From Agelas oroides (lineage: Eukaryota; Porifera; Demospongiae; Agelasida; Agelasidae): a stretch of 64,000 bases of DNA. The notes beneath the pieces were generated by a model. The model ran no database searches, was not told the DNA's origin, and was given only the letters and a program-made list of their open reading frames with translations. Position numbers and translations under genes: made by a program. The DNA is taken from contig OX422185.1 in the NCBI GenBank assembly GCA_949130485.1, positions 7,975,127 through 8,039,126 on the forward strand, in the 5' to 3' direction. Positions 6,911 to 26,636 of this stretch are shown in pieces (position 1 is the stretch's first letter; each line of letters begins with the position of its first letter).

Positions 6911-7204
6911 GTGTTGATGATCTCTTTGATGTACAAAGTGAGCTCATAGCAGTCTCTGCAGAATGGAAGAGCATTGGTATTGCTCTGGGACTGAATCCTA
7001 ATGTACTGTCTGGCATTCAGACTGACAACAATGACCATACTACTTGCCTGCTATCTGTGGTGACAGAGTGGCTGAAGAGGAATTACGATGTGAAGAAATT
7101 TGGTGAACCAACTTGGCGGTGGTTAGTAAAGACAGTGAGTGACCCTGCAGGTGGAAAGAACAAGGCACATGCAAGAAAAGTGGCCATGAGGCACAGATCT
7201 GGAG
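6911..7204 (+). CDS. Death-domain exon 1 of a Death-Death-subtilase gene
   Basis: This internal exon is 294 nt, in phase 1 at both ends, between an acceptor (CACTCCAG) and a donor (G|GTATGT at 7205). Its 98 residues form a Death-superfamily six-helix fold. Recognisable features are an N-terminal LFDVQSELI stretch, WKSIGIALGL (helix 2, with the usual buried Trp), a middle LSGIQ, LLSVVTEWL (helix 4 to 5) and the C-terminal GEPTWRWLVKTV. Death domains mediate homotypic assembly of signalling complexes in apoptosis and innate immunity. It is about half identical to the second Death exon at 9064, pointing to exon duplication. The start of the gene was not found; it must lie upstream. Confidence 0.8.
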
Positions 7205-7934
7205 GTATGTCTAGTAGGCACATTGCGGAATATTATTGCATGCAAGGTACATATTTTTGCATTTGAATGTGAACACATGAAAATTTGTACTGGAAAAATG
7301 TGATACCATTGGCTTGATTATGGTGTGCACATATGCAGGTATTTTGACTTTCAATTTAGCTGCTGATACTATTCTAGGCATAGTTTGGAGAATGAACAAC
7401 TGAAGGTTATAACAGTACTGCCTCTATGCAAAGATGTGATGGTTTGCTACTGTACAGTGGATGTTCTTTATATGTGCATTCCAGGGTATGCATGTCAGGC
7501 ATTGGCATTTTGCTTGCACACTTTTGTGTAGCTATACTAGACCAGTAACTAGTAGGCTTCAGCATAATATGCTGACATTAGTTTGAGACATTGCTGTTTG
7601 GCATCAAGCATAGAGCAAGGATTTGTGATCAGTGTAGTATTATGTGAACCACATGGATCCAGTGCACCTACACACTATGGAATCAACGTATAATTGTGTA
7701 AGTGGTAGTGTTGTTGAATCTGCTGATCATAGTTTGAACAATTGTGAGTGATCGTTTGCAGGGAAGCAACTAAATTGCTACTAAGTAACCTTCAAGTGCC
7801 CAAGTGATCTGAAAATGATTCATCTCAAATGCTGTGCAAGCAATCATTGATTTGTTTGACTATAAATGCACAGTGAAGACATAATGAGATACTTTCAAAA
7901 GCATCTAATTAGACAGTTCCACAAGCAGGAAAGT

Positions 7935-8600
7935 TAACCCTTTTACCCCGACGCGCATGCGCAGAAATCGATCGCATGGTTACGAGAGAAGCTAATAAAA
8001 ATGGCGATTTTGTGTAGTGTTGATTCATTGCGTTATATCTTATAAAATAGCTGAGTTCAGGCAATGATAGTTAGGCTTAGCTTAGTTAAAAACAAACCTG
8101 CTTTACTCAGAACGTAATCAGAAGACCTGCATGTAGTGAAGTCCAAAGAAGCTGCAATGGTGGAAACGTGGGTACCCGCTGTGTACCTGAAAATGACCGA
8201 TAATACACGGCAAAAGTCGGCAGACAGTGTCAGCGAAGTTACGTTTCAACTGTCGCTGACACGATTAGATAGTATATAGACGATAGAACAAGTAGCGTGT
8301 GGATATAAGCTGTACTGTGGCCAACTACAATCAGCAGGCAAACTTCGAATGCGATTTTGAGCTGAAGTCCCTATAGGACACCACAGCTAATTATTATGCT
8401 TCGATTGACTTCCTGTTACTTGTAGTAACTAACTCCAAGTCCAAAAAGGCGCAGCGATCACGATAAGTAGCGGAAGCGATGTGCGGGCGCATTTTGGCCG
8501 CTATCAGGTGTAATGGACAAGAAATTTCACGGGCGCATTTGTCCACTATCGGGTGTAATGGAAATTTAAGGAGTGTAATAATTATGAATTAGCCTGGTAG
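7935..8600. repeat. Dispersed repeat, inverted relative to 39398-40110
   Basis: This intronic block shares long stretches with the reverse complement of 39398-40110, for example AGGCTTAGCTTAGTTAAAAA here against the TTTTGATTAAGCTAAGCCT region there. Part of the family reappears at 60420-60640. Ends include ACCCTTTTACCCC and a CGCATGCGC motif. No coding capacity is seen, so it is probably a non-autonomous DNA element. Confidence 0.55.
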
Positions 8601-8651
8601 ATATCCGTACATTTTTTTGTCGCCATCCATAACCAAATCTTCTTCCCCTAG

Positions 8652-8708
8652 CTCTGCAGATCTCTGCTGATGTGACTCAGTTCTCAGGAGTTGATTCTAC
8701 TCCATTAG
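8652..8708 (+). CDS. Short linker exon between the two Death domains
   Basis: A 57-nt open segment between an acceptor (CCCCTAG at 8645-8651) and a GT at 8709, in phase 1 at both ends. It encodes about 19 residues rich in Ser, Asp and Thr (QISADVTQFSGVDSTPL). It joins in frame to the Death exons on either side, and its end resembles the candidate exon at 3635-3695. The donor (G|GTCTGG) is weak, so the exon may be skipped or alternative. It is short and depends on phase logic plus the duplicate, hence the moderate confidence. Confidence 0.4.
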
Positions 8709-9063
8709 GTCTGGAACTAATATACTTAGTGTTGACCTTTTAAACTTTTCGCAGTTTTGCTGACTTAGCATTTAGAAACTACTCATGTTACATGAAGATC
8801 GAAAATACTTAGTCCAGAGGAAGTACAGTCTGGAGCTCACACTAGTTCTGGGTGTGCTTGTAAACATTGCCCAGCAGATCTACTGACATCACTATGACAT
8901 TGGTATTCTCTCTTACGGTGGTAGTCATGCATCACGTTCTGTCTCATGCCAATTAAGTAGCCCCATTCATAATTATGGTAATCACATATGCATCATTCTT
9001 GCTTGCTTAGCTGGTTATGCATTCTGCAAGTACCCACATTGTTCTGTTTTTCTGGTCACTCAG

Positions 9064-9360
9064 GCATTGGTAACCTCACTGATGTAAATAGTGAGCTCAC
9101 ACCAGTTGCCGCAAAATGGAAGAGCATTGGTACTGCTCTACGACTGAGACCTGATGTCCTTGAGAGCATTCAATCTGCGAATAAAGGTAACCCTTCTGCA
9201 TGCCTGGAGTCAGTGGTGACAAACTGGCTGAATGAGAACTACAATCTGGAGAAGTTTGGTGAGCCAACTTGGCAGTGGCTGGTTAAGGCAGTGAGCTACC
9301 CTGCAGGTGGAGCACACATGGCACTTGCAGACACAATAGCCAAGAGTCACAAGGCTGGAG
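9064..9360 (+). CDS. Death-domain exon 2 of the Death-Death-subtilase gene
   Basis: A 297-nt phase-1/phase-1 exon bounded by GGTCACTCAG and the strong donor G|GTAAGT at 9361. It encodes 99 residues with the same layout as the first Death exon: LTDVNSELTPVAAKW, WKSIGTALRL, LESIQ, CLESVVTNWL and GEPTWQWLVKAV. The two copies share symmetric phases and equivalent borders. They could be inserted or duplicated without disturbing the frame. As a tandem Death module it would be expected to form homotypic or heterotypic filaments or oligomers that bring the C-terminal protease domains together; this is inference from the family. Confidence 0.82.
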
Positions 9361-9550
9361 GTAAGTCTAGGTACATATGTACCATACAGTGGAATGTTTT
9401 TGCAAGCTAAACAATATTTGCATTCAAATACAGAGAAGATATGTTCACATACCAAAACTATCATTAACTGTCAACGCTGTTTCAAATTCTGGGGTTGTGG
9501 TTACACGTAAGAAAAAATTGTATATTATTCTTACATTTTAATAATCATCC

Positions 9551-10013
9551 TTAACCGATTATACGCGTAGTAAGCATGAGAAACCTTGTAGGTCATTGAT
9601 CGACTTGATTGTGCAAGTGACTTATTGGCCATGTTTTCTTCTCAACGCCTATAAAGAGAGACACAATGCTAGCTACAGAGGTACAGCGGACCTCAGGCTT
9701 CATACCTATCAAGACAGTTCTGAGGCTACATCTCGCTGTCAACGAGAAAAGCCAAAGATGGTACACACAGAAAGCGACAAACAAGCGCTTCGCAAAAAGC
9801 AGCTGCTGTGTACTTCACAAACACTTACCTAGGTACAAATTAAGCGATAGAAAGCTTTTAAACCCCTTTTTTAACTCTGGAAAACTATTTTCAACTTCTC
9901 TGGTGCTTATATTTTCAGATAAAAGCTTTTATAATTGTTGACCTCACGTGGCATTAAAAATTCTGCGTTGGGGGTTAATTAAATTCCAATAAACTTGCCG
10001 TATAATCGGTTAA
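9551..10013. mobile_element. piggyBac-like MITE flanked by TTAA
   Basis: TTAA at 9551-9554 is followed by CCGATTATACG. The other end reads CGTATAATCGG then TTAA at 10010-10013. Terminal repeats starting with CC, inside duplicated TTAA target sites, are the piggyBac signature. The 455-bp interior has open frames on both strands but no transposase motif, so this is a non-autonomous copy in an intron. Confidence 0.65.
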
Positions 10014-10467
10014 ACCCTATAGTGCACTTTTGGTTACATCATGCTGTGGAGTGCACAGAAAAGATAGCGGGTTCTGCATGAGCAGAAAGGGTGGGGCAGG
10101 GGGAGGTGGGTGGGGTCACCCACAGAGTGACACGCTATTGTGGCAGCCTGTAGAAATGGCTTGGTTGGGTCTGGGTGGGCCATATATCACGTTGGTTGCA
10201 CAAATGTGGTTGGAAAATGCTACTCTCACCTTCATTTCTGGCAGTGAAGGCAGTTTGAGCTCAGAACAGATGTTTGCTGGCTGAGAATGCTGACTATTGC
10301 GAGTCCAATGGGTGGGCATGGTTAAAGTCGAGAGTGTGTGTATTACATCTGCAAGTGGAGTTAGGTTAAGTTTTGAAGTCAGGGCTTGGACAGGAATGAA
10401 AATATAGTACATTGATGGCGTGTACTAAGAGTAATCTTGAATGAAAAATAAAAATTAAGGAATGACA

Positions 10468-10728
10468 TGTGGCAGTCCTGTGTAGAAATCGAAGGTTATT
10501 CTGTCGCGTATTTTGATCATATCGTTGCCTTCGAAGCGCCATATCACTGAACTTCCGTTAAGAGCAGGGCTAATATGTGCTTCGTAGATTCATGAGATAT
10601 TCATACATCTACGAAGTGCGTATCAGCCCCACCCTTAATGGAAGTTCAGTGATACGGCGCTTCAAACACAGCAATGCGATCGAAATATGCAACAGAATAA
10701 CCGTCTATTTCTACACGAGACTGCCACA
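10468..10728. mobile_element. Palindromic MITE, TGTGGCAGTCC family, copy 1
   Basis: A 261-bp near-perfect fold-back. TGTGGCAGTCC at the left is mirrored by GACTGCCACA at the right, and the arms stay complementary nearly to the centre (CCGTTAAGAGCAGGGCT / AGCCCCACCCTTAATGG). Copies 2 and 3 are at 16293-16532 and 23295-23536. All three are in presumed introns of the same gene. Confidence 0.7.
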
Positions 10729-13188
10729 CATGTTGAAAAGCTTACAAACAAGGTAGAAATGATGTTAATGTAAATATGAGGGCAAACATACGAAACTCCA
10801 TCCGTATATATATTTCACACTGCAGTTATGTAGCATGCAATGGAAAACGTTATCACAAAGTGAGTAGTTGTACACTATTATCAGAAGTGTGATCTATTGT
10901 TAATGTACCATGCGATCTATGTAAATGGGGCTTTGTATGTTAGTCTTGATGTTTATATCTTTCCTACCTTGTTTGTATACCTTGTGGCATACCAACCCTA
11001 TGAGTAGTCTATTCTTATAAGTGGATTGTTGACAAGAATGAGTTCAAAATGTTTTGGTCTGTGGACCTTCATCAGTTGAATGAACTTACACTCACACAAC
11101 TCAAGTACGGCATAGCTGGTATTTATCGCAGAACCACAATCTATTTTATTACGGAAAATTTTCGCAGACGCAAATTTTCGAATTCATTTATTCAAGCGAA
11201 AAGTAAGCTAGCTATAGTTTGTACCAGAGATGCTCAAGGAGATCCTTGTCAAGTTGTGCAGTATTATGGTTATGGACACACTCCTTAGTGGAATGCGGAC
11301 TAGTATCACTAGCAGAAGTGGGCTGGCTCGTGCGAGACTTAGGCGCACTGACAGCAGCAGGCTAAACCAAGAAAGAGAGTGGGCCCTTGGAGTTTGGTAA
11401 CTGTATTTGTGGGATGGCTATTGTAATGGTGACGTGTTTCATGGACAGAACTGTTTGTAGAACTACACGCACGTGGATATGAGTCATAAATTTTCACCGG
11501 GTGATTTTTCGCAGATCCCAATCGACCACGAAAATTGCAAAAATTACACTCCCGCGAAAAATGCCCACAATACGGTATATACAGGTAATGATGTAGAGAT
11601 GATGTGGTGATGATGTAGTCATAGTCTATAAAAATGACACTGCAGTAGGTTCTGGACAACTTTGTCAGATGACAGTAACTGTTGTTGATGTACCAACTCC
11701 TCAGTTGGGTTAAGGCAGGCTCCAAATATATTATCCATGATACGTAAGTATGCAAAGGTATCATTTGCGGAAGTTGTAATACAATTTATGGAAACTGAAG
11801 GGCTGCCGTGTGAAGGCTTCTTATAGCTTTACTAGCAGGGTTATGGTCGTTAGTCTGTACTGTATAGGTTCGTGCTATCGCTGGTTGTGAACTAGACATG
11901 TCTAGCTTGTAGCAGGGCTACGACTGGACGAAGAGTTTTGTGTTTCTGGAAGCAAGAAAGCGTCGGGAACATCTATCCGCCTCGCATTCTATGCTTGGCG
12001 ACGCCTCGCGCTTCACGCTCGGCCCCCATCCCCCCAATGTAGTGCTGAATTTTAGAGAACTCGGTGTGTAACACCGGTAAATAGGAATAGCTATCATGCA
12101 TCCTTCATAATCCGGGTGGAGTGACGGTCCCCATCGCTTCTTAAGAGCAGGAGAGTTAGTAGAATTTGTGATTACCCTGCCATTTTGGGCATATTCCAAG
12201 GCATTTTTTTTTCCGATTTACTCGTAACGTGTGAAGAGCATTGGAACGGTACCAGGGGAAAATGACAGTGGCTCAGGGAGGGACCATGTTCGCGGAAATA
12301 CTGTTAAGACAGTCTTAATTAGTGGACATTGTTTACAAGAGGGTGGGGCATTTCCATGGAAACCAATTTGTCTGTTTACATCATCAACCACAATCATGGC
12401 GTACGGTAGTACGCCATATATAGGGATGACCCCGAAAAAAATGGGGGCCACATTAAAAGTGCACAAATGACACACTCGAAATGTGTACGTTAGATTAGTC
12501 AAAGGCCTCCATGAGCCAGATCAGGCATTATCGAGCGCTTCCATGAGCAACAGGACCGTTAACTTCGCTGGAGAGCATCGTTGGAAGTACCAAACAGGCA
12601 AGTCGCTAAAACGGGCAAATCGTCTATCTTCTGACTTACTTTCTTCTTCTTCTCTCACTCTAAGTCAGGCTAGCACAAAAACGGCTGAAGCTATGGTTCG
12701 AACGCAAAAAAAAACAGCATAAATCACCGGGTATTGCACTCACTACTTATCGTTATTGTAGAACTCGAACTATTCTTCAGTGATTCTCAAGCACTCCAAT
12801 GTTAATGCTCAGTGCTATACGCCATTTTGCTAGAATAAAATTATTCATAGCAAGTACGCCCCCCCACCCCCCCAGAAGCTCAACTGAGCACGTGTTTAGA
12901 TCTAGCTTACCGTGAAAGATGAATCGGATGGCAACAGCCAAAGTCAGGTATATAGTATGACGTAAAACATAGAGAGGGGATGTGCATGTTTCCAGGAGAA
13001 GTATTATAAGGTATGTATTGCTAGAGCTGCTGTAAATGAAAGTGTATGTCTCATATAAATGTGAGGACTCCCACACTAAGCACATGTAGTTTGCAAGTGC
13101 AGCAGTTTCTACTTCCATTTAGACCATAGCTGAAGTCATTTTGTAATTTAGTCAGTTGCTAGTCATATAACCCACCTAGATATGAGGT
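10729..13188. other. Intron sequence with degenerate repeat pieces
   Basis: No convincing exon was found. 10900-10985 is a decayed copy of the TAGGGATGGCATGCC MITE family. About 11100-11580 contains TTTTCGCGG-type motifs and a TACGGTAT-like end, like an old DNA element. 12245-12290 (GACAGTGGCTCAGGGAGGG) resembles the tRNA-derived SINE at 36363. 12858-12872 is a C-rich run. Confidence 0.35.
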
Positions 13189-13190
13189 AT

Positions 13191-13264
13191 ACTTGATGGT
13201 TAAAACACTACCTGGTACTTGCCAGCTAATGTTAAGTAGCCAGCTAGTGTTTTAACCATCAAGT
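13191..13264. repeat. Short perfect hairpin
   Basis: ACTTGATGGTTAAAACACTA (13191-13210) is exactly complementary in inverted order to 13245-13264, around a 34-base centre that also contains CCAGC/GCTGG-type pairing. A compact fold-back of 74 bp, likely a minimal MITE or a transcribed hairpin in an intron. Confidence 0.6.
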
Positions 13265-13338
13265 ACTTTGTATCCGTGGATTATGTGACTTAGAACACTG
13301 GCCACTGATATTCAATTTTTAATTTCAACTTTCACATT

Positions 13339-13629
13339 TCAAATTTGCTTGTTATGGTCATTTAAAACAAAAATGCATATAGTACGCATACAATATTTAC
13401 TTAGAGCTGACGGTAGCATTTTGGCTGGTGTCTTCTTAACATCCTCCTTTTGTGTTGTGCCTGAGTCTTCATATTCCTCCAACGCAGCAATTAGCAGCCT
13501 ATTGGTAGCTTGGTCCTCAAACTGCTCTATTGCAGCTAATAGCACTGAGTCAATGGTGGCTTCATTCAAAAACTTCCACACTAAAGGAGGTAGCCGCAGA
13601 AACTGGCGGTTGTTCAGCTCCCGCTCACT
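13339..13629 (-). CDS. Unassigned acidic coding fragment on the opposite strand
   Basis: The minus strand is open for about 96 residues from 13629 to a stop at 13339. Two adjacent stretches look like imperfect internal copies of one motif (LLAAIEQFEDQ and LLIAALEEYEDS), followed by a Lys/Pro-rich tail. An in-frame stop sits immediately upstream (13630-13632), so this is either an internal exon or a broken gene piece. Composition looks protein-like, but I do not recognise the family. It lies antisense within an intron of the Death-subtilase gene, which is more typical of a transposon-derived fragment than of a host exon. Confidence 0.35.
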   Translation of the reverse strand, partial: SERELNNRQFLRLPPLVWKFLNEATIDSVLLAAIEQFEDQATNRLLIAALEEYEDSGTTQKEDVKKTPAKMLPSALSKYCMRTICIFVLNDHNKQI

Positions 13630-13778
13630 TCATGTGGACTACTATTCGGTTCACTGACAAACTCTCTGCAGACTTCGTCCCCACAGAGCTCACATACATT
13701 GTAGTATTGAGTCGTAAGACACCATTAGAGCAACAGTTTTACAGTGAGTATCTATCGGTTTGACACCACAGCGTTGGG

Positions 13779-13879
13779 ATCTATGGGATTTATAAGCCTG
13801 TGTGCAAAGCCTCATAAAACTCATGTGCTTTGCACTTGGGTTTTATAAGGCTTTGCTTGCACTTCTAAACCCCATAGAT
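13779..13879. repeat. Small palindromic element
   Basis: ATCTATGGGATTTATAAGCC at the left mirrors the right end (CTAAACCCCATAGAT), with inner GCAAAGCC/GGCTTTGC pairs. A roughly 100-bp imperfect fold-back. Confidence 0.5.
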
Positions 13880-14041
13880 AAATTTACGATTTCATTTGGA
13901 AGCATTTATGATTCTTTGTTCTTTGTGAACAACACAGTTCTATGCTTCCATACTTTACAGAGCATGAATCTTCCCCTCGCCTTCCTTTCCCACTTCTCTT
14001 CTCTCTTACTATTTCTAGAAAAATAATAACAGCAGGAACAA

Positions 14042-15705
14042 GTCACAAAAAAGGTTTCTGAATGAAAACAAGCGCATGTAGGGATGGAACCCCCAAAAAC
14101 CAGCCAAACAAGATAGGAACGACACCACAACACATTCACACCGTCCCTACATCTTGTGCCATTTTTCCCACTATGCACACACAAAAAACTCTCTACACAC
14201 TCACTCAGGCAAACTAAGGCATGGGACATGTCATTTTTACACTAGATACACAGGTATTTCAAAAATCAATAGTGTGTATTGAAATCTAAAAGACCAGATG
14301 AAACTTGATTTGTGTATATATGAAGCTCTAAGCTATAAGTCAGTACCATGGAAACCGTACTTGTGGGCGTGGCTATCAATTACCACTAATATAAATTAAG
14401 CTAATATTTGCGAATATATCGTCGAAGGCGGAGCAGAAGACGACGGTTGCCCGCTACCAAACTTGCTACAATAATTCAACTGAAGGTAGTATACATGGAA
14501 GTATCTGGAAGAACCGGCAGCCTCCTACAGTATTCTTGAATGATGCCAAAAATCATAAATTTAGGATAGCGGCGAGACACTACGCACGCTACAGAAGCAA
14601 CACCAACAACAAGCTTACCTTCTTCCAGAAAGTTTTGGTATTCTCTGATGGTAAGCAATCCTTCAATCCATGTCCAATTGTTTTGTTTGGCATTCTTCTG
14701 CTCCGCCTCGACACAAACAGTTCTCACGCGCACGGTTGACAGTACAGAGTACAAAGGTCAGTTGAAGTTGAAGCGCTCAACCGCTGAACGGCATGTAAAG
14801 ACCACCTTGTGCGTCCTACGTGCAGCCTATAGGTCGCAGAATTCATTCACGAGGATATAACAACGATATAGTCGCAGAACATGACGTAGAAAGCCAGATC
14901 GCATTTTACGGTTACGCCCACTTCTGTTAGTCACGTGAGCTTTACGTTGCGGTTATGTGAAAATTAAATCCCACACTGTAAAAAAGGAAAGGTTGTTCTG
15001 ACTCAATTTGGTTACCTCAGTTAATTTTCTTTTGATTGTCTGCATTGTTAAACACGGTGGAGTCCCACTGCCTGCTTAAGATTCCACACAGATTAAGAGC
15101 TTGATTTGGCTTTCCAGATCATTAGTAAATGTCATGGGAGAATACTTTGCTAATGAAAATGTCCAATCATGTGGAAGAGGGTGTGAAACTGAGGTAACCA
15201 AAATGGGTTAAAACTATCCACTTTTTCTTACAGTGCATGCCTTAATCGCCCTGAGCACTAAATGAACACGGTACTCAGCACTGCTCACTTCACAGCCTTC
15301 CACATAAAAGACAATCCTTATCTGCCACATTCAGCAGCAATAAAATTTCACAACATAACTTAAACTCCCAACATACCATACAGACCCAGCACTGCTCACA
15401 GTTTCCGCATACAAGACAGACTATACCTGCCATGCTCAGTAGCAACTACATTGCATCCACCCACAACATAACACACTCTCCATGCACATCAACATGCACT
15501 ACACACCCAGCAATACCCTCCCCCACTGCCTTCCACAACCCCTCCTATGCACACAACTAACAAACACGAAACATAGTTGGCAAAAATGGCACAAGATGTA
15601 GGGATGGTGTGAATGTGTTGTGGTGTCGTTCCCATCTTGTTTGGCTGGTTTTTGGGGGTTCTATCCCTACATGCGCTTGTTTTCATTCAGAAAACTTTTT
15701 GTGAC
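14042..15705. mobile_element. Long fold-back element of the TGTAGGGATGG family
   Basis: 14042-14172 and 15578-15705 are inverted copies. The outer arms begin GTCACAAAAA and run through TTCTGAATGAAAAC, CATGTAGGGATGG and GGTTTTTGGCTGG-type sequence to TGGCACAAGATG. The roughly 1.4-kb centre has no transposase signature and carries a nested CACTGTA MITE at 14974-15235. The ends share TGTAGGGATGG with elements at 24389, 32514, 33650 and 41464. Confidence 0.6.
14974..15235. mobile_element. MITE with CACTGTAAAAA ends
   Basis: CACTGTAAAAAAGGAAAGG at the left is mirrored by a CACTTTTTCTTACAGTG right end, with inner GGTTACCTCAG/CTGAGGTAACC arms. This is the same terminal family as 35824-36278. The CA..TG ends hint at hAT-type origin, but no clear target duplication is visible. 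Confidence 0.55.
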
Positions 15706-16292
15706 TTTACAATAACAGGCTACAAAACAAAAGCCACTAGTGCACTTCTTGTCTGCAAAATACACCATAACGTTACTGTGGTCATAAGTCACAACAATGC
15801 TTGTCCACAACCAGAGCCTGTCTTAACCCACCTGAGTCCGCGTTCTTGTGCTCCCTCCCTTGTTTTTCGGTTTGCTTTCAGCGCAAGACACAGAATGGAA
15901 GGGCAGCAAAACACAGGGCTAGGAACACTTATCACGTGATATCATGTGGAAGTGAGCTGGACTTAGGGGGGGTGGGGTCCACATCCAAATAACATACTTG
16001 ACTTCATCATCAGGCCCTCCAATGCTAGGCAGGATTTCAACATTCACAACATCGAAAGTACTCAACTTGACTGGTAAGAAACTTGCTCTGAGGTTTATTG
16101 TACGCAAATTTGCAGTTGGGCACCGTTCTCCTACGTCCACCTTATATCCACATCACATGATAAGTGTTTCCAAGCCTTCCCCCATTTATTGCCACTCTCC
16201 ACTTTCTTGAACACAAACCGAAAACAAAAACGAGGAAGGCCTGGAATGAGGACAGGTCATTCATGCTGCAAGAGTTATAGTTATTATACATA

Positions 16293-16532
16293 TGTGGCAG
16301 TCCCGAATAGAAATCGAATATTATTCCGTCGCATATTTCGAGCGCGTCACCAAGTTTGGCAGGCTATAGCGCTGAGCTTCCGCTAAGGGCGGGCTTCATA
16401 GACGTATCAGATATTCATGTGTTTACACGTTGCATATGAGCCCCGCCCTTAGTGGAAGCTCAGCTTCAAACTTGGTGATGCGCTCGAAATATGCGATGGA
16501 ATACTACTTGATTTCTATCCGGGACTGCCACA
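16293..16532. mobile_element. Palindromic MITE, TGTGGCAGTCC family, copy 2
   Basis: Ends TGTGGCAGTCCCGAATAG and CGGGACTGCCACA. The inner arms CTAAGGGCGGG/CCCGCCCTTAG and ACCAAGTTTG/CAAACTTGGT are complementary. It is close in sequence to copy 3 at 23295 and more diverged from copy 1 at 10468. Confidence 0.7.
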
Positions 16533-16794
16533 TATGATATTCAAAGGACTGATTAAATATGTTACAGCTGCTAAGTTCATGTTTCTTCTGATGTAATGTT
16601 TGAAAATTCACTTTAGGGAGGGTGGCTGCACAATCAATGCAGTATAGAATAACTTAGCCTTGTTCACATGTCACATGGGAGGAGAAAGATACATGCATCC
16701 CACATGGAAACAAAGCTAAAAATATTTGCCCCTTTTTTGGTCAAAGTATGGTGTGATTTGTTAGTTTCACAATCTCTGAATTTATTCTCCTCAG

Positions 16795-16869
16795 CGAATG
16801 GAGAGTCAGGTAGTATGAGGCGGCTTGCTACTGATAGTGGAGACCCAACATCAACTCGCACAGCAGCAG
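16795..16869 (+). CDS. Ser/Thr-rich linker exon before the protease
   Basis: A 75-nt open segment between a polypyrimidine acceptor (TTATTCTCCTCAG at 16782-16794) and a strong donor (G|GTAAGA at 16870), in phase 1 at both ends. It encodes 25 residues (NGESGSMRRLATDSGDPTST..). Joined to 25588 it reads through Ala-Ala-Ala-Thr-Pro into the protease exon without a stop; joined to 9360 it also stays in frame. A flexible linker between the Death module and the catalytic domain is the natural role. It is small, but both splice sites and the phases agree. Confidence 0.5.
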
Positions 16870-17496
16870 GTAAGAAAACTTCTCAGAAACTGAACTGTAC
16901 TTGATAACATTTTGACTAGATGCTCTGGTTATTTGACAAATGTGTAGATTATCTGCATGTCACTGTGAGCTTTAGGTACGTAGTATGAAATTCTTTGTAA
17001 AAGGAGCATTGATGCTCACTTCACAATGCACATGCTTGTGTACTTAACTAGGCTTTTTGAAACATCTCTCTTAAATCCCTGATGATAAGCACTATATAGT
17101 GGGGCAAAAGAAATCAACCCATTATATACTGGGTTTCATTTTCTAGAAGTCTTTTTGGGTCTAGTACTATGCTATGGCAACAAATCAGTGATGCATGTCA
17201 GTTATCTGGTATACGTATAGTGTGCTACTATGGTGATAAACATTTTATCATACAAACCTCCAATTTCATTGCACGTTCACATGACTGACAGTAGTACCAA
17301 AGTTTACACATGGATAATATATATTGTAAAAAGCTTGGTGCATGAAATTCATGATTCACGTACCACATACTAACGTGCCTAGTGTGCATAGGTGGTCCAC
17401 TTTTCATGGTTCTTAATTTTACGAATGTAGGCCAATGCACATTCATACAACAGAGTTGTAGTACATAAGTTTTTATCAATTACGAGCAAAGTAACC

Positions 17497-18043
17497 GCAC
17501 CCCAAGATGCTTAATGCTTATAAGAGGTACTGTTTGCTGGTAGGCCACTGGTACTTAGCTACAAGACCTGAAGTAGGTTTTAGAGATCAGGATTTTGTGC
17601 TGCAAATTTTCCTGAAGTGGAAAGCCTTAGAGTTCAGAGTTTGTGGTTTCTTAAAAAAGCTTTACCCTCAAGGGAGGAGCCAGACATCAGTTGTGAATAG
17701 CAAGGCACGCCTTCACCTCCTTTATACTCGCGCATTACGCGCGTAATATCAGCCCGAAGCGCGGTAGCGCGCTCAATACACGCAATGATTTTATACGTAG
17801 TATATTGAACATGTGACGTCACGTAAGCGGAAAAATCGCTTCGGGAGTCGCTATGAGGGGTGACAGTAGTGTAGCTGGTGAAGGGAGAGTTGTTGGTGTA
17901 CCAAAGTTTCATTCATGGGGTAAGTGCACCATGCCATTAACGAATATCAACTCAGATTGGATGTTCAACGCTTCCTCCGGCCTGTGTATTATATTAATTA
18001 ATTAGTTATTTACACGGGTCCTTTAAGTTGCATCTTGGGGTGT
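17497..18043. repeat. TIR element with GCACCCCAAGATGC end
   Basis: GCACCCCAAGATGC at 17497-17510 pairs with GCATCTTGGGGTGT at 18030-18043. The interior includes a CpG-rich block (17735-17860, with CGCGCATTACGCGCG) unlike its surroundings. A partial copy of the right end appears at 39195-39260 inside a LINE fragment, confirming it is dispersed. Confidence 0.5.
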
Positions 18044-18489
18044 AATCAGCTGCAAGGCTTCCCCATTGACTGCTGTGCATTCACGTGAGTTAGACTATGA
18101 CAATAATCATATCATGGAAACCATCTGATCATCATCTGACCTGCGATGGTAAAGTCCCCGGCTACATGCACATGTACATGGGTGTGTATGTAGTGAGGGT
18201 ATCTCTGTCCAGTTGACCAACTGCTATACTCTAACCCCAGAGGAGGCTGGGCACTTAAATAGATTGTTTACAGCATGTGGTTATGTGTGTAAACTCTTGT
18301 TAATGACTTCACCACAAGTATCTATAATTAGCAATGCTCACGTAATATTTTTATCAAGTGGCCAGTGTTCAGTCAGTGAGTTGTGGTGAATCGCCCAAGC
18401 TGTGGAGACAAGTTACCTACACGATTCCGCTTTCTAGAAAAACTAAAGCTTCCGAGGAACAGCAATTCACCTCATGAGAGGTAGCCAGT

Positions 18490-19898
18490 ATGACTTTGGA
18501 CGGCTTGCACCAACAGCTCAAGGCAAAGAAACTGCCTACTAGCGGGAACAAGAAGACACTGACAGCTCGTCTGAGAGCGCACCGTGATTGCTCAAGCACT
18601 AGCAACCGACCCAAGCAGATGGATAGGAATCCTCGACAGCAAAGCTCGCCAGTGCAAGCAATGCACCGAAAAAGCCGACTACAATGGCCAGATATCCCCC
18701 CGCCAGCACCAGGTCACAACCATAGCACACAAGAAGTCACGTCGACAGTGAAGCACAGCAGCAGCTCGGCAGTGTGAGCAACACTACAACAATAGTGAAC
18801 CCAGTCGCCCCCGCCGCCAGCATCAGACCAAAACCCACCAGCACGGTCCCACAAGCGAGAGCTCTCGCTCATGATCTTGTTCTCCCAACGTGACCCATTG
18901 AGGTTCTTTCCACACTCCCGCCACACTCATACTCGGCAACAGTCTACCAGCTCTCTGATAGGTTCCTCCGACACCAAAGCCCCTGATGACTCGCCATACA
19001 CACTGGGGCTATACCAATCGAGTAGCAACAGTAGACTAGTACGGTCAGACAAAGAGCTACCAGGAGCCGCCAGCACTACTCTCAGAGAAGACACACATGT
19101 CGCCAGTGCAGAACTTCGTCCAGCTGGAAGAAGAGATACCACAAGCACCCCCGACCCTCCAGCAGCAGTTCGACTACATCGACAACAAGCACCGACAGGG
19201 AGTCTTCATCGGAGTTCAGCACAGATTCAAGCTCGGGCCACGTGCATAGACACCCAAAGCGTAAACACGGAAGACTGACCAGCCGTCTGTCTTCACACAC
19301 AAAGTCCAAGTTCAAGAGACTATGAGTGCCTTGTTGCCCCCCCTCTCCCAGAAAGATATTCAGCCAGAATTGTGACAGGTGAGTATGTATCATTTGACCA
19401 ATTAACAATAACAAAAAAGGCAAGGTTTCTCCAAACAATCTTCCAAGCAGCCAAGGAAGATAGTGATGGCCTTAGCTAGCTGGTTGGAAGCTTGGAACCG
19501 ATTCGCTGGGGTAATTGTCGCTACAAAACCTGCTTTCGAGATGCTTAAATACCAGACGCTGATCATCACGGCATTCCAGAATTATCCAGCTGAGGCATGT
19601 ATCGAGTATGACCGCCGTTTCAGACAGCTTGCAGCGAAGGACAAAAAAGTCCCATGTGACAAGTACAGAGAGGACATATTTGTCTGTGTGCTTCTCTCGT
19701 AAACCAGTCAGCGCCACGGAAACACGCAACTATTTTCGCTACAGCAAACCAGCCATTCTGTCATGTCTTGGCACAGCCACAGACACCGACACACACACAT
19801 CCACAGGAGCCGAAATTTGCATCTGCTTTAACACCACCAGGGGCTGTACAAAAGGAGAGGCATGCAAGTTAAAACATATTTGCAACAAGAGAGGCTGA
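18490..19898 (+). pseudogene. Gag-like region: SAP motif, conserved Gag core, CCCH knuckle
   Basis: Several frames must be combined. 18490-18777 starts with a SAP-like helix-extended-loop-helix (LDGLHQQLKAKKLPTSGNKK), a DNA-binding motif. About 19355-19475 carries GEYVSFDQL and shifts frame into 19470-19702 (ASWLEAWNRFAGV), the usual Gag core of DIRS/Ngaro elements. 19815-19898 encodes a CCCH zinc knuckle of the form C-FNTTRGC-x4-C-x3-H. At least three frameshifts or stops separate these parts, so this copy cannot make an intact Gag. It normally would package element RNA. Confidence 0.6.
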
Positions 19899-20935
19899 AT
19901 GCAACAGCTAAAACCACCAGCACTCTCCCCAGCAACAAAACGAGCATATACCACAGGGTCAAAGTGCTACAAGGCGTTTTGCAGGAAGTATTCCGTTACT
20001 CCATTCCCAACCACACAACTAACACTGTGCTATTTTGCGGCCTACATCAGCAAGCAGGTGCAACATGCAACGTACAGTCAGACTCTACATAGCAGCACTA
20101 CGAGCAGAAGAATTGAGCCGAGGCTTGGAGGACCCACTCAAGGATACCCAGCTGTTGTCATGGCTCCTGCGTGGTGTTCAAAGACAGTCCAAGACCAGAA
20201 CCAGGCTGCCAATCCACCCAAAGCTGCTGCAGCAGCTGATCCAGTCAATCCTGAGCAATAGACTGTAAGTATGACCAATACCTTTATGCAGCAGCCATCA
20301 GCATCGCATACTTCGGATGTCTAAGAGCAGGTGAAGTCTCATATCCATCCGCACACTCCTTCCACCCTAAGCAGCACCTAATGATAAACGACATCATCAT
20401 TCACCAGACCAAAGTGCAGCTACGGCTCAAATGCTCCAAAACGGACCAATTGAGGAGAGGGGCGACTATCACTATTGGACCAAGCAAACAAGACATCTGT
20501 CCAGTGCAGATCACAAAACAGTTCCTACACCTCAGGAAGCATGCACACAAATCGGATGCAATATTCCGTCTCCAAGACAGTTCTCTGCTTACAAGACCAA
20601 GACTCCAAGTAATGATACAAAACACACTGCATTCACTCAAGCTCCCAGTGGAGCTCTTTGGTACCTGCAGCTTGCACATTGGGTCAGCCACTGCAGCAGA
20701 TCCGCAGCCAACCAATGAGCGCAAAGGATGCACAGCACCTTCTTCAAGAGATACGTGATGCTGAAGATGTGCTGGGAAAGAACAGGCAAATGGGAGTTGA
20801 AAAACAAGAGAGGGTTGAAGAGCTACAGATGCAGCAGAAGCTGGAATCCCTATGAAGATTATCAAAGCCATGGGCATATGGTCAAGCGATTGCTACCGCA
20901 GCTACATATGTACCCCACACAAGATGCCAAACCAG
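19899..20935 (+). pseudogene. Tyrosine recombinase of DIRS/Ngaro type, damaged
   Basis: The N-terminal core-binding part is read at 19899-20060 (SPATKRAYTTGSKCYKAF, then YFAAYISKQ) and shifts frame to about 20045-20265 (LYIAALRAEELSRGL, RLPIHPKLLQQLI). The catalytic part is at 20285-20720: YFGCLRAGEVSYP holds the first catalytic Arg and KCSKTDQLRRG the Lys hairpin. The usual HSFRIG box reads CSLHIG, so both the His and the second Arg are replaced. The tyrosine box (WSSDCYRSYICTP) survives near 20877-20915. Between the Arg box and the Tyr box, a Glu/Gln-rich coiled-coil-like stretch (20716-20855) is inserted. The enzyme is dead. Confidence 0.65.
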
Positions 20936-21314
20936 CAAACTCTGTGCATCATAGGACTACACGAGCAAGTTTACTGTTACTACTCTCATTAAGTTGTTAT
21001 TAAATTCATGCTATTGATGCCTTCCTACCAATAAAGGTGACCTCAAGATTAACCTAGGCACGCTTTTAAAGGTCAACAGCCTAGTAGCTAGATAGACAGG
21101 CAGCCTCAAAGGTCAAGGAACTTGCTGACCAGGCATGGTTGCAAGGATTTCAGCTGTGTTTGTTTGATAATTAAGTGACTGTGAATGAGTTATTACATAA
21201 CCATGGCAGCAGTACAAACTTCAACTGCCATATAAGTCACTACAGTTTACTGTGTTAGCGTTGAGGGGATTCTGCAGAACCTTTAGCACTCACAAGCCAC
21301 AGCCTCAAAGGACA

Positions 21315-22085
21315 AGGCCAGACAGATTCCCATGGTAGTTGGGAAGGCATCAAGAGATTGTTTACAGCATGTGGTAATGTGCAGATTCCCATGGTAGGTA
21401 TTGCTACCGCCTCAGCCCTATCACTTGGCCAAGCAATTCAATCAATATTCACAGATGAGATCATGACGAATGGAGATAGCTGCATAGCAAGATAGCTAGG
21501 AGTTGGGAAGGTATTAACACATTGTTTACAGCGTGTGGTAATGTGTGTAAAGGCCAGACAGATTCCCATGGTAGCAGTAACACCTCAATAACACAGGTGT
21601 GCAGGTTGAGAGCTTTGGCCTACAACCATCCAGGCTAGAGAAGGCTACAAATACTTTTCCCTCATGGCAATACCAAGCTTACAACCATTCTAGGTTATTG
21701 GCAGAGTCCTAGTCTAAGCTAAATCGCATTAGCACAGGCTAAGTGATGGAACTCACTCAGTGTCAGGACCAGCTAGCCCAAGTGCTTTGGCACCCATCAG
21801 ATAGCTGTAAATCAGAGTTGAGTGTTTGGCCTGTTTGGGGGGTCAACCTTGGGGCGGTCCCCAGCAGGATCCTACACATTAGGCCCAACACACAGGCTAG
21901 TCCCCAGCAGGATTTTACACACTGGGCCCAATCACACGTGCATAGGATGGCACGCCTAGTACCAGCCAGCGCAGGCACTAGGTGTTGCTGCCGGCTCAGC
22001 CCTATCACTTGGCCAAGCAATTCAATCAATATTCACAGACAAGATCATGACAAATGGAGATAGCTGCATAGCAAGATAGCTAGGT
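21315..22085. repeat. Interleaved direct repeats downstream of the recombinase
   Basis: Besides the terminal units, a block starting GCTCAGCCCTATCACTTGG and ending GCAAGATAGCTAGG is present twice, at about 21405-21500 and 21992-22083, in direct orientation with few differences. They may be terminal parts of a related retroelement or a separate tandem insertion. A short inner repeat, CCCAGCAGGATYYTACACA, lies at 21862-21920. Confidence 0.5.
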
Positions 22086-22099
22086 GTTGATAAGGCATT

Positions 22100-22152
22100 A
22101 ATAAGCTTTTAGCGTATTTGTGGTGAAGTTATACGGCTTTTGCTTAAGCATT
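22100..22152. repeat. Fragment of the large TIR element that received the LTR insertion
   Basis: This stretch (AATAAGCTTTTAGCG.. to ..CTTTTGCTTAAGCATT) matches 42917-42971 closely and the reverse complement of 32545-32605. Sequence after the LTR element (GCATTGCATATTATGCACG) continues the same family. The host repeat was therefore present before the insertion, and it supplies a paralogous empty site. Confidence 0.6.
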
Positions 22153-22349
22153 TGCAACGGACCGAGCTTAACCACTTGTGTTTGACACCAGAACAAGATA
22201 GATCCACTAACAAGTACAACAATGTGCACTTAAATACTGAACCTCTAGTAATCAAAATACCTGATAAAACACCTAATCCTAGCACCTATTAACATGTGCT
22301 AATAATTTATATTTCACACATTGACACCTAACAGTCACAGTCTGTCACA
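22153..22349 (-). repeat. 3' LTR of the compact element
   Basis: Left on the + map, 3' in the element's own orientation. TG...CA termini. Apparently identical to 23057-23253. Confidence 0.85.
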
Positions 22350-23133
22350 CTCCTCCCTCCTTCTCCTGTAGCAAATCTTGTTTGCTGCGACAGGGCAGTG
22401 TCTTCTCCGATATTCTGTCTCTGGGTCCCTGTTCTGTGGCCTCTTGTCTTCTTCTTGCAGCACCATCCAGCACTCTGCACACCTTTTGCAGCCTCTCCGT
22501 ATCCAGTCTCTCCACACTGCGGCACGTCAGTAATACGCGCGCACGCTCTGATCTCCCGGCGATCCAAGGCGACTCACTCACGCCTCTCCCGGTGATCCAC
22601 ACAGCAATAAACAGCCTTTTCACACTGAGCGACAATCCTCTGCGTCTCCTTGCCAGCCCCTCTGGCAACACGCACGATCTCTTACAAGTCTCACTTGCCT
22701 CAGCGTCTGTTGCAACCTCAGCGATCCTCGCTCTCTCTGGCAGCGATCCTGGCCCGCTCAGCGCTCCTCGCTTTCTTGCGGCGACCTTCGCTCCTAGCGA
22801 CCTTCGCTTTCCTGGTAGCTCGCGCACTCTCGGCAATAAAATATCCTCCTGCCCTCTTGGCAGTCGTTGCTCTCCCATCGACTCTGATTGGCTTGCTAGC
22901 TGTCGTTCTCTCTCTCGCAATAACTCCTGCTCTAGCTCGCACTGCACGTTCTGGCGATCTGTACCACTCGCTTGCGCACTCCTTCTGCTGTAGCTGCATC
23001 CGCTAGTGGGCCCTGCCGCCGACTGGCGGGCAGTGGATCCCACCGCTGCCACCAAATGCAACGGACCGAGCTTAACCACTTGTGTTTGACACCAGAACAA
23101 GATAGATCCACTAACAAGTACAACAATGTGCAC
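22345..23133 (-). CDS. Arg/Glu-rich ORF of the compact LTR element, function unknown
   Basis: A minus-strand frame of 262 residues crosses the whole interior and ends in the purine tract. It is rich in Arg, Glu, Ser and Ala (LEQELLRERERQLASQ, ARRRRGLSLSVKR), with a possible coiled-coil segment after residue 60. No Gag, protease or RT motif is recognised. The nominal Met (23131-23133) lies inside the 5' LTR, so translation more likely starts further in. The frame may be a remnant of a basic Gag/nucleocapsid region or a by-product of sequence composition; the antisense strand is also open for 203 codons (22382-22993), which weakens the coding case. Confidence 0.35.
   Translation of the reverse strand: MHIVVLVSGSILFWCQTQVVKLGPLHLVAAVGSTARQSAAGPTSGCSYSRRSAQASGTDRQNVQCELEQELLRERERQLASQSESMGEQRLPRGQEDILLPRVRELPGKRRSLGAKVAARKRGALSGPGSLPERARIAEVATDAEASETCKRSCVLPEGLARRRRGLSLSVKRLFIAVWITGRGVSESPWIAGRSERARVLLTCRSVERLDTERLQKVCRVLDGAARRRQEATEQGPRDRISEKTLPCRSKQDLLQEKEGGV
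22350..22370 (-). other. Polypurine tract
   Basis: Directly before the 3' LTR on the minus strand is an all-purine run, AGGAGAAGGAGGGAGGAG, the expected start site for plus-strand DNA synthesis. Confidence 0.65.
23037..23056 (-). other. Putative tRNA primer-binding site
   Basis: On the minus strand the bases right after the 5' LTR read TTTGGTGGCAGCGGTGGG, of the TGGTNNCAG form seen at primer-binding sites of LTR elements. The tRNA used cannot be named from sequence alone. Confidence 0.55.
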
Positions 23134-23253
23134 TTAAATACTGAACCTCTAGTAATCAAAATACCTGATAAAACACCTAATCCTAGCACCTATTAACATG
23201 TGCTAATAATTTATATTTCACACATTGACACCTAACAGTCACAGTCTGTCACA
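23057..23253 (-). repeat. 5' LTR of the compact element
   Basis: Begins (on the minus strand) TGTGACAGACTGTGACTG and ends at 23057 next to the putative primer-binding site. An AT-rich stretch inside (AATATAAATTATT) could serve as a promoter TATA region. Confidence 0.82.
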
Positions 23254-23294
23254 GCATTGCATATTATGCACGTTTGTACCATCCCTTAGCTACA

Positions 23295-23536
23295 TGTTGC
23301 AGTCCCGAATAGATATCGAATATTATTCCATTGCGTATTTCGAGCACATCACCAAGTTTGACGCGCTATAGCGCTGAGCTTCTGCTAAGGGCAGGGCTCA
23401 TATGTGCTTCATGTGTTTACTTATCGCATATGAGCCCCGCCCTTAGTGGAAGCTCAGCGCTACAACGCGTCAAACTTGGTGATGCGCTCGAAATACGCTA
23501 CAGAATAATATTCGATTTCTATCCGGGACTGCCACA
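23295..23536. mobile_element. Palindromic MITE, TGTGGCAGTCC family, copy 3
   Basis: Ends TGTTGCAGTCCCGAATAG and CGGGACTGCCACA, with complementary arms GCGCTATAGCGCTGAGC and CTTAGTGGAAGCTCAGC. Immediately downstream (23538-23566) is AGAGAGTCTACCAACTCTC, also found at the ends of the large inverted elements at 32494 and 43010. Confidence 0.7.
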
Positions 23537-23823
23537 CATAGAGAGTCTACCAACTCTCCGATAGCTACATCAACTCCCTGTTAGGAATGGACTCACCCAG
23601 CACTGTTAGTCAGGTAAAACAAAATTGTAGTTACTGTGTGCTTTTTGATATTGTGACAGCTAAAGAGAATGTCTGACTTCCATAATGAATTCATGTACAA
23701 GAGCTGGGGTATGAATGTATGGAGATTTTGTATACTCATCGTAATAAACACCTCTGTAACTTGTGATCAATAGTAGCTCTTTTTGATGTAAGCTTTGGAG
23801 AGAGAGAAAGAAAAATCCACTGG

Positions 23824-23887
23824 GATCCAGCTGGGAATCGAACCCAGGACCTTCCGATTACTAGTCGGACGCTCTTACCACTGGACC
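23824..23887 (-). ncRNA. tRNA-derived SINE head, tRNA-Thr(AGT)-like
   Basis: On the minus strand, a 7-bp acceptor stem (GGTCCAG/CTGGATC, one G-T pair), an anticodon arm TCCGA-CTAGTAA-TCGGA with anticodon AGT, and a T arm CTGGG-TTCGATT-CCCAG are all present. The B box GGTTCGATTCC is perfect. The 5' strand of the D stem is missing, making it only 64 nt, so a working tRNA is unlikely. A pyrimidine-rich tail follows on the minus strand. Best read as a tRNA-derived SINE or a tRNA pseudogene. Confidence 0.55.
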
Positions 23888-24388
23888 CACGGGACAGAGG
23901 AGCGAAAGCAAGTCTGCATATAACAGCCATGCTAGAGGCCTCAGCCAACTCCAGCTGTCTCTCTCTCTCTCACCGCTGGATACACTGCCTAGTTTTTGAA
24001 TGGAGATCCCCGGCGGATGGGGTTGCGGGCCTGGGGTGGATTGACTGTGGATTATTCTTTCTCTCTTACATCAAGTTGTTCCTGCCTACATAGAGCCCTC
24101 ACATCAGTAGCTCTTTTTCTATGTAATAACCACAGTAGAATGTTCTATAGACCAAATAGTTTCTAGTTGCTTCGGACATCATGCATTGTTGCTTCAACAG
24201 CTTTTGAAGTTACTCCAAGTTAGAGTCTGCATCAGAAACAGAATTCTTAGCTTGAATGGATCCTGTATAGGGTGCAGAACCCACTGTCCTGCCTGCATAC
24301 ACTCCTCCATAGTCAAGAAATATTCTTCCTCGGCTTGGGTCTAACTGGAAACATCAAAAAAGTACAGAAACAAGGAAATGAAATCATT

Positions 24389-24600
24389 AAAAATGTAAAT
24401 AGATGTAGGGATGGCATGCCAAAAAGTATGCAAAAAAGGTAGGGATGACACTGCTTCAAAATATTGTACAGTAAACCAATAAACTCAAATATGAACTGAA
24501 CCCACTAACTCTGAAGTGTAAAATAAAACTAATATAGAAACGGTACAACATAAATGATGGTAAATATACAAAGCCCTATCTCTACATCTTTTTACGCTTT
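24389..24600. mobile_element. MITE, TGTAGGGATGGCATGCC family
   Basis: AAAATGTAAATAGATGTAGG at the left is mirrored by CTCTACATCTTTTTACG at the right. Internal GCATGCCAAAAAGTATGC matches copies at 33650, 34150, 41480 and 42020. Intronic, no coding content. Confidence 0.6.
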
Positions 24601-25587
24601 TAGTTCCTTGTGATAAATGCAATGCGAGCAAAAACAAGTGATAAGCAGCTGGGCTGGAGCCTGGAAACAAGGCTAAGAACAAAGTAATAGGTGCCATGCT
24701 ATGTAGCAAGATATACGTTCATGACTTTTATGCAGTAAACAGGTAATTCTGGTTACACCCCTTGTTGGGAAGGAAAATGGCCTTACCTTCATTGAAACTT
24801 TACTGCTACCTTCCCTAAGCAAGTATGAGGGAGGTTTTAGTGGGAGAGAGCCCCTAAACATTTTCTTTTAGTGGGGTAGTTTACATGCAACTAGTGTCAT
24901 GCTGTACCAAACTACTACCGAGTTTTAACAGACTCACAGACCAGAGTTCAGTAGGCACATAATTGGTAGTTAGGCCTTTGGAAAGAAGTAGTCAGAAGAG
25001 TTGTTTGTAATCTATGAAAAACATAATGTCTACTTGTTGCAGTTTTCCACTGTGGATGAAATGATCGGATAGTAAAATAAGAATGTTGAAATCCAGCCAG
25101 TACTCAAACCAGGGTTGTTAGAACAAGCTATACTGTAGTATCACCAAATACAAACCAGGGTTGCTTATTAAGACAAGCTGTACTGTTGTATTACTAAGTA
25201 CATGATCAGGAAGTAAAAACTTCTATAAGCTGGAAATGTCTTGCTTCACTCAACTTCCAAAATAGACATAAATGATTCAAACTTCAAAATATGTAGCTGT
25301 AACAATAAATAGCCAGAAGCTATTGCGGGCATGTGCAAGTGTTGTTAGGATTTACATATGCACAATTATCAGGTGCAAGGGTACTATATATAAAGTGTAA
25401 ACGGTTATCTACCCTGATCAGAACTTCTCGTTTGCTGGGAAGAAGTTGGATAAGAATCTGCTATAAGCCACTTAAAGCCTTAATGATAAGTTGCCTTTCA
25501 TTTCAAATTTGAGGAGTGAAGTGAATTCTCAGATGTACTAGAATAACACTATCTTACACAACACCTGTCCTCTATTTTTCACTGCAG
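24601..25587. other. Intron sequence before the protease exon
   Basis: No element or exon is recognised apart from an imperfect tandem duplication at 25100-25200 (AACCAGGGTTG..AACAAGCTATACTGT). It ends with a good branch/polypyrimidine region and the acceptor TTTTTCACTGCAG. Confidence 0.4.
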
Positions 25588-26636
25588 CAACACCAATGCC
25601 AGCTCCATCCCAGTCCCAACCCAAACCAATTCCCTCCAGGGCATGTACAGATATTCAATTCGACCCAGAGATCGATGGTTTTGCTGTGACTATATGGGGA
25701 CTGAAAGGATTTCATGATATAGGTTTTAAGGGTAAAAATAGGGTGATTGCAATTATTGACTCCGGGATTGACCGTGCTCACAATGCCTTCAATCGTGCGG
25801 ACAAGATTCACCCAGACTCAAAGAGCTTCTTAGCACCTGGCGATGACATCACTGATCTTGATGATCATGGAACTCGCTGTGCTGGTATTGCTGCAGGCCT
25901 TCCTGTAGAAAATCAGTTCCAAGGAGGAGTTGCACCCGAAGCTCAGCTACTAGTGTGTCGTGTTAGTATAGAAAAGAACAAGCCACAGACAATGATTGAG
26001 GCATTGGAATACCTTGTTAGTCTTCGACAAAAAGGTAAGCAGATTGATGTTGTCTCCATATCGCTTGGATATCACCTTGACGAACAGCAGGAAACACAAA
26101 TCAAACAAGCTCTAAATAAACTGATTTCTGAATACAAGACCATAGTCATTGCAGCTGCATGCAACAATGGTCAGCGAAGAGATCCCATATGGTATCCAGC
26201 AAAGTATGGAGACACAATATCCATTGGTGCACATGACCATAACTATAACAGAGCACCTTTTTCATCAGTTGGGCAAAGGCTAGACTTTCTGGCTCCTGGA
26301 GTTAACATGGGTGCTCCAACAAAAGGCAAGCCTAAACTAGCAGGTGTATCTGACGGAACATCCCTTGCCACCCCTGCAGTAGCTGGCCTTGTCGCCCTCC
26401 TGATTCAGTGTGCTAAGGAGGTACGTGGACTTGCAGCAACCCGTATCTCGAATCACACAGTCATTAAGTATTTGCTTCAACGAATGAGTTCACATGATCA
26501 TAACAATGAAAAGGGCTTTGGAGCACTAGAACCTAACAAACTTTTAAGCACACTCACACGAAGCGGTGCTGCAGATGTGCTTCACGGGCATATTAAAAAT
26601 GCTCTTGGTGGGTGCGACTGCGATGATTGCAAATGA
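25588..26636 (+). CDS. Subtilisin-like (S8) serine protease, terminal exon of the Death-Death-subtilase gene
   Basis: The exon enters in phase 1 after CACTGCAG and runs to a TGA at 26634-26636, about 349 residues. Counting from the Met at 25596, the catalytic triad is complete: Asp55 in IAIIDSGID, His91 in DDHGTRCAG, Ser256 in DGTSLATPAVAG, with oxyanion Asn190 in AAACNNG. It cleaves peptide bonds after substrate recognition. There is no signal peptide and no inhibitor-like prodomain in the exon, and a Pro/Ser-rich stretch (PAPSQSQPKPIPS) precedes the catalytic domain; this suggests a cytosolic enzyme linked to the upstream Death modules. The C-terminus is Cys/Asp-rich (GGCDCDDCK). An internal Met could also start a stand-alone protease, the main alternative model. 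Confidence 0.88.

Follow-up and report, generated by a model that had tools for sequence, protein, structure and literature searches.

A 64-kb stretch of the Agelas oroides genome (contig OX422185.1, positions 7,975,127 to 8,039,126; hereafter, the window) carries on its + strand two Death-like exons and, some 16 kb apart from them, an exon for a complete subtilase (Peptidase_S8, or S8) domain. The sequence-only reading, made from the letters of the window, had joined these parts into one candidate gene of five exons and about 590 residues. The proposed exon chain was checked for phase and open frame on the + strand, from ATG to TGA, and its splice sites were ranked against all 4207 AG and 3856 GT dinucleotides of the stretch. 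The five exons are AG/GT-bordered at the coordinates claimed; each is entered in phase 1, the first four are also left in it, and the joined frame of 589 residues reads through to the TGA. The exons stood as placed; the set itself was incomplete, a start exon at 3659-3695 having been missed. With this exon the model comprises 602 residues from ATG to stop (577 residues if exon 4 is dropped), and all six exons are open in frame with the catalytic residues kept. The features are given below, where exons 1 to 5 are those of the original set.

3659..3695, + strand: proposed start exon, ATG...CTAG/gtatgt; peptide MSDVSEVDSTPL plus the first base of G; exit phase 1
6911..7204, + strand: Death-like exon 1 (exon 1), phase 1-1; 7 of 4207 AG and 34 of 3856 GT score better (generic matrix)
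8652..8708, + strand: short linker exon LQISADVTQFSGVDSTPL (exon 2), phase 1-1; 9 of 4207 AG score better than its acceptor
9064..9360, + strand: Death-like exon 2 (exon 3), phase 1-1; donor GAG/GTAAGT; 64 of 4207 AG and 5 of 3856 GT score better (generic matrix)
16795..16869, + strand: candidate linker exon 4, NGESGSMRRLATDSGDPTSTRTAA, phase 1-1; lower confidence
25588..26636, + strand: terminal exon (exon 5), with a P/S/T-rich linker, a complete Peptidase_S8 domain, C-terminal CDCDDCK and TGA
19899..20758, + strand: repeat, a mobile-element remnant in the last proposed intron, outside the protein; 4 other copies

The donor of the start exon, TAGGTATGT, is outscored by only 55 of the 3856 GT in the window. 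Its peptide VDSTPL is also present in linker exons and near the N-terminus of protein P0014, where it directly precedes a Death-like domain; at C9:9178577-9178897, the start peptide and a Death match lie in a single open frame (query 1-107, 47% identity). A VDSTPL-type linker was found within 1.5 kb upstream of a Death exon in 14 of 30 fetched loci (the window locus counted) and downstream in 1 more, so that the linker-Death exon pair recurs across this genome. The linker exon at 8652-8708 has a weak donor, GTCTGG (557 of 3856 GT better, generic matrix). The acceptor of the terminal exon, tttttcactgcag, opens it in phase 1 and is outscored by 80 of 4207 AG (generic matrix). As to the introns, which had been described as filled with transposons, the 16 kb are partly repetitive and the repeat at 19899..20758 has 4 further copies of 727-785 bases at 85-87% identity, with more fragments elsewhere in the genome, while the sole match of the exon 4 region in the genome is itself.

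Exon 5 encodes the complete S8 protease, with all catalytic residues, that had been read from the sequence. It scores 137.9 bits against Peptidase_S8 (PF00082; cut-off 21.8), and the codons for the catalytic D, H, N and S start at 25758, 25866, 26163 and 26361, corresponding to D311, H347, N446 (the oxyanion Asn) and S512 of the 602-residue model. These four residues (columns 57, 93, 192 and 258 of the S8 exon) are invariant in 26 of 26 sequences of alignment A3. Exon 5 aligns to subtilisin NAT and to subtilisins in general across the catalytic core; an AlphaFold model of the S8 exon has a predicted local distance difference test score (pLDDT) of 87.8, and its best match in Foldseek is subtilisin E (6pak_A, E 2.8e-20). 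S8 is the sole family over the Pfam cut-off in the chain. A C14 cysteine protease domain is absent from it, and neither NACHT nor NB-ARC was found in it by Pfam at E<=1. The claim that the protease lacks a prodomain agrees with the Pfam scan, which returned none at E<=1; the companion claim, that it lacks a signal peptide, was judged by hydropathy scan only and not by a signal-peptide predictor, the N-terminus of the model not being hydrophobic (maximum Kyte-Doolittle 19-residue mean of 1.03 among the first 40 starts). At loci L001, L002, L004 and L006, an upstream open frame has, by eye, the look of a prodomain. A C-terminal CDCxxC motif (window 26613-26630) is common to the nearest S8 relatives, P0002-P0007; P0008 is without it. 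The relatives P0002, P0004, P0005, P0007 and P0010 come from contigs 166 kb to 1.4 Mb long. Bacterial contamination as the source of the S8 exon was rejected because the exon sits on a 19.4-Mb contig of a 259-Mb genome and its clade includes Death-S8 proteins. When viral contigs were scanned with the S8 exon, 4 stretches matched the pattern and 0 were confirmed by tblastn.

The assignment of the other two domains to the Death fold rests on family alignment, profile-profile comparison and fold comparison. Neither of the two Death domains that had been claimed passes the Pfam Death cut-off: each exon alone gave 0 families at E<=1, and the chain scored 12.8 bits against PF00531, whose cut-off is 22.6. 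Their standing as proven PF00531 members was rejected on these scores; profile and fold comparisons nevertheless lean towards Death. Both are members of a Death-like family that counts at least 150 exons across this genome (150 of 539 candidates were scored); against its hidden Markov model, Death-like exons 1 and 2, both part of the training set, score 154.6 and 160.0 bits. Weak contact with PF00531 was seen in 11 of 31 family exons (best E 0.0081), and comparing the family by HHalign with a wider selection of 16 Death sequences gave a probability of 84%. The AlphaFold model of Death-like exon 2 shows seven helices at low confidence (pLDDT 58.7). In a Foldseek search of the PDB with it, the top 7 and altogether 17 of 29 matches were Death-domain entries, with E 1.1-4.1 for the top 7 and none at or below 0.001. 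Judged from profiles and models, the two exons are likely, though not proven, to encode Death-fold domains of a divergent subfamily. No further Death-like exon was found at E<0.1 in the open frames of the window, and a protein search with the Death half alone matched only P0014 (1 protein among 3009 candidates). Loci L040 and L041 hold long single exons with the Death-like family at the start, a second Death-type domain at the end (by eye) and an unrecognised middle.

The Death-S8 layout itself exists outside the window. In a protein search with the S8 family alignment 1695 sequences passed the threshold, and among the best 120 of these 1695 there are six relatives in which Pfam Death and S8 share a single open frame (P0011, P0091, P0092, P0093, P0137 and P0168). 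On re-scanning, the Death domains of P0011, P0137 and P0168 scored 39.4, 24.8 and 27.9 bits (cut-off 22.6); P0137 and P0168 lie on contigs of 406,769 and 750,535 bases. P0012 has the second half of a Death domain in its S8 frame, at 20.8 bits, below the cut-off. In an IQ-TREE phylogeny of 78 S8 domains, the window falls inside a clade supported at 100/100, whose first two branches, the P0011 group and then P0137 (86.6/95), all have Death or half a Death domain. In the remaining members, including the window, S8 is preceded in its frame by no more than about 115 residues; being open frames from single exons or contigs, these S8-only entries do not reveal exons upstream. FastTree recovered the same clade from 113 S8 domains with a support of 0.891. 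P0168 falls outside this clade, with weak support (47.2/73). Since the earliest branches are Death-S8 proteins, the tree suggests that Death in front of S8 is likely the ancestral state of the clade. With six one-frame proteins at hand and the window S8 nested in their clade, the Death-S8 combination is no artefact of exon chaining; the joining of the window's own exons over 16 kb, the other half of the original proposal, is a prediction. The N-terminal pieces of P0011 and P0013 gave no match by phmmer against the open frames of the loci. In a second S8 clade (including L008), one-frame members have 300-450 residues ahead of a prodomain-less S8; the same arrangement is seen in P0103, P0105, P0110 and 25 other listed proteins. 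Pfam recognised nothing in the region ahead of S8 in P0013, P0103 and P0149, the three that were scanned.

A lineage adjoining the Death-S8 clade (joined at 94/95, IQ-TREE) contains the S8 domain of a one-frame, 1586-residue NACHT-LRR-S8 protein of the same genome (L077:699-5456; C11:6343998-6348755). The protein scores 47.3 bits for NACHT, 42.4 for LRR_6 and 85.2 for the C-terminal S8; it has a hydrophobic stretch of transmembrane look and, as read by eye, keeps the D, H, N and S motifs. A second LRR-S8 copy lies next to it (L077:5864-7809), its S8 part split over two frames, and L062 at C11:7006768 is a close sister S8. The N-terminal region of P0188 resembles, by eye, a P-loop NTPase; Pfam gave S8 alone for this protein. 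With the Death-S8 proteins, the NACHT-LRR-S8 protein and P0188, this S8 group is thus attached more than once to death-fold or NLR-type (NOD-like receptor) modules. Two S8-type domains share an open frame of about 940-1015 residues at L072 (C5) and L073 (C10) and in P0176 and P0186 (P0186 by eye); the first domain looks, by eye, partly degenerate.

The splice that would join the Death exons to the S8 exon across 16 kb is predicted from sequence and is not proven. With the generic matrix, exon 4 ranks first among the open candidates of 30-299 bases that are symmetric in phase 1, over both strands of the 64 kb; 16 of 4207 AG score better than its acceptor and 7 of 3856 GT better than its donor. 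Symmetric phase-1 open candidates with a summed score of at least 18 number 4 on the + strand, 3 of them in the model, and 1 on the - strand. A single + strand pair, open in another phase, outscores exon 4.

A number of observations weigh against the joining. A matrix trained on Death paralogues puts 535 of 4207 AG ahead of the exon 4 acceptor and 654 ahead of the S8 acceptor, and under it exon 4 is equalled or surpassed by 10 other candidates on the + strand and 5 on the - strand of the interval. We relied less on this matrix, as the sites used to train it are mutually homologous and as it also scores the recurrent linker exon low (223 of 4207 AG and 316 of 3856 GT better than its acceptor and donor). 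An in-frame ATG lies within the S8 exon, which appears among the listed proteins by itself as P0001; its nearest relatives, P0002-P0005, are listed as S8-only frames. Secreted subtilisins fold with the help of a prodomain, and the window S8 has no visible one. HHalign of the Death-like family against the Death parts of the six one-frame relatives alone gave 3.6%, and by sequence comparison the window exons belong to another Death subfamily than those relatives. Two other genes of the Death-S8 clade in this genome, L005 and L061, are present in the tree and served as a sibling check. A Death exon (25.8 bits, over the cut-off) lies about 13 kb upstream of L005 on the same strand, with the wrong exit phase or a stop at its end; L061 is without Death in about 9.6 kb upstream. 

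As to chance, an even spread of Death exons of this type would give about 0.6% (150 listed exons) to 2.1% (539 candidates) of genes a same-strand one in the 20 kb ahead of them, figures that are a guide only because Death exons are clustered and the listings omit weak matches such as the Death exon of L079.

Balancing these data, we give a probability of about 0.62 to a single gene that runs from 3659 to 26636 and encodes start peptide, Death, VDSTPL linker, Death, P/S/T-rich linker and S8, that is, a cytosolic, Death-clustered subtilase of about 602 residues. The partly repetitive 16 kb between the two parts, the early ATG and separate listing of the S8 exon, the S8-only frames of its closest relatives and the want of a clean Death link in L005 and L061 would all suit two adjacent genes, one with the Death pair and ending after exon 3 or 4, the other encoding S8 from the ATG of exon 5 or from an unseen 5' exon. 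However, frames of single exons or contigs are silent on what lies upstream, exon 5 starts at a good phase-1 acceptor (generic matrix), the S8 exon of L005 likewise begins at a phase-1 acceptor and has no ATG ahead of its domain, and the earliest branches of the clade are relatives with Death and S8 in one frame; two genes seem improbable to us. A Death-S8 gene could also be assembled from another set of exons, with exon 4 unused or extra exons added, the Death pair having replaced an older Death domain by exon shuffling. Dropping exon 4, which ranks low in the Death-trained matrix, leaves the chain open; the Death exons are of another subfamily than in the one-frame relatives; and the exons are symmetric, phase 1-1, which makes exon shuffling possible. 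Against such a variant stand the rank of exon 4 as best symmetric phase-1 candidate in the generic matrix and the lack of any further Death-like exon at E<0.1 in the window, and we hold it to be possible but somewhat doubtful.

A genuine fusion might instead serve outside immunity, as a processing protease for house-keeping or development whose targeting is due to its Death domains. The functional role is here predicted from sequence, and caspases are present too (32 PF00656 matches in the genome), both of which leave room for this option. Against it, an S8 lineage next to the Death-S8 clade is joined to NACHT-LRR and the Death exons are part of a family expanded to at least 150 exons, both features being usual for immune families; a non-immune role appears unlikely. 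That the locus is decaying, a once functional gene broken by transposon insertions, would agree with the long, repeat-bearing introns and with the stops carried by the sister S8 L060. It is hard to reconcile with six open exons, the kept catalytic residues and an exon 4 region that is open and matches only itself in the genome, and we rate it as very unlikely.

Three further features were seen in the window: an AIG1-family GTPase domain at 61599-62207 on the - strand (30.5 bits, cut-off 27), a reverse transcriptase fragment (RVT_1) at 31076-32086 on the - strand, and a tRNA match at 23823-23887 on the - strand, possibly derived from a short interspersed element.

If the single gene is real, its product would most likely be, by analogy, a Death-assembled, proximity-activated serine protease. 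The tandem Death domains would dock onto a Death-bearing receptor, adaptor or sensor; clustering would raise the local concentration of the prodomain-less subtilase, which could then cut its own linker, nearby substrates or both. The Death-Death-S8 protein would in this way be a serine-protease counterpart of an initiator caspase. Such activation by assembly is plausible by comparison with known systems; splicing over the 16 kb, the cytosolic location, Death-driven assembly, activation, the immune role and the substrate are parts of the model that we infer. Initiator caspases of animals carry CARD or DED prodomains. They resemble the model in having a Death-superfamily module ahead of a cytosolic protease, with clustering as the expected trigger. 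Unlike them, the window gene would have an S8 serine protease as its catalytic domain instead of a C14 cysteine protease, the C14 matches of the genome being separate. Because the genome has these caspase matches, an S8 branch would add to the caspases and not replace them. Bacterial and intracellular subtilisins (PDB 6pak, 7y6m, 2xrm) share the fold and catalytic residues of the window S8; they have no Death domain and are 26-30% identical to it (50 fold alignments shown).

The use of S8 as an effector has precedents. Fungal NLRs are described as using Peptidase S8 as an effector domain of an immune-type sensor (PMC4986451), a likeness to the window group; there S8 is joined directly to the NLR, whereas the window gene would have tandem Death-like domains and no NTPase. 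HET-Q2, a subtilisin-like serine protease of Podospora, likely cleaves the gasdermin HET-Q1 (PMC12881547); it matches the proposed role as a subtilisin-like protease in regulated cell death, and is fungal. Sponges have proteins with Death domains, and also Death-bearing NLRs (NLRD) (PMC12909245), and Death joined to PNP_UDP is recorded in a sponge (PMC4986451); like the window family, these are expanded Death families with effector domains joined to Death. The passages on these sponge proteins mention no S8, and in the main text of the NLRD account (PMC12909245) 'subtili', 'peptidase' and 'protease' each occur 0 times. No animal Death-S8 or NLR-S8 protein was found in the literature at the level of titles and the opening lines of abstracts, a scope outside which most subscription papers lay. 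Death-S8 is a death-fold-coupled protease with a catalytic class that is not usual for animals; fungal S8 NLRs are already known.

In the usual description, caspases or kinases stand at the end of animal death-fold signalling. We tentatively envisage that some animals have a death-fold branch with a subtilisin as executioner, in which Death-bearing sensors would assemble Death-Death-S8 proteins and of which a NACHT-LRR protein with a C-terminal S8 would be the direct version. A Death-coupled subtilase clade with a NACHT-LRR-S8 relative would mean a second protease class working in the same assembly logic, as in fungi. It raises the question of whether a serine protease without a visible prodomain can be activated by Death assembly, and which targets it cuts. 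If true, the arrangement would amount to an inflammasome-like pathway with an independently recruited class of protease.

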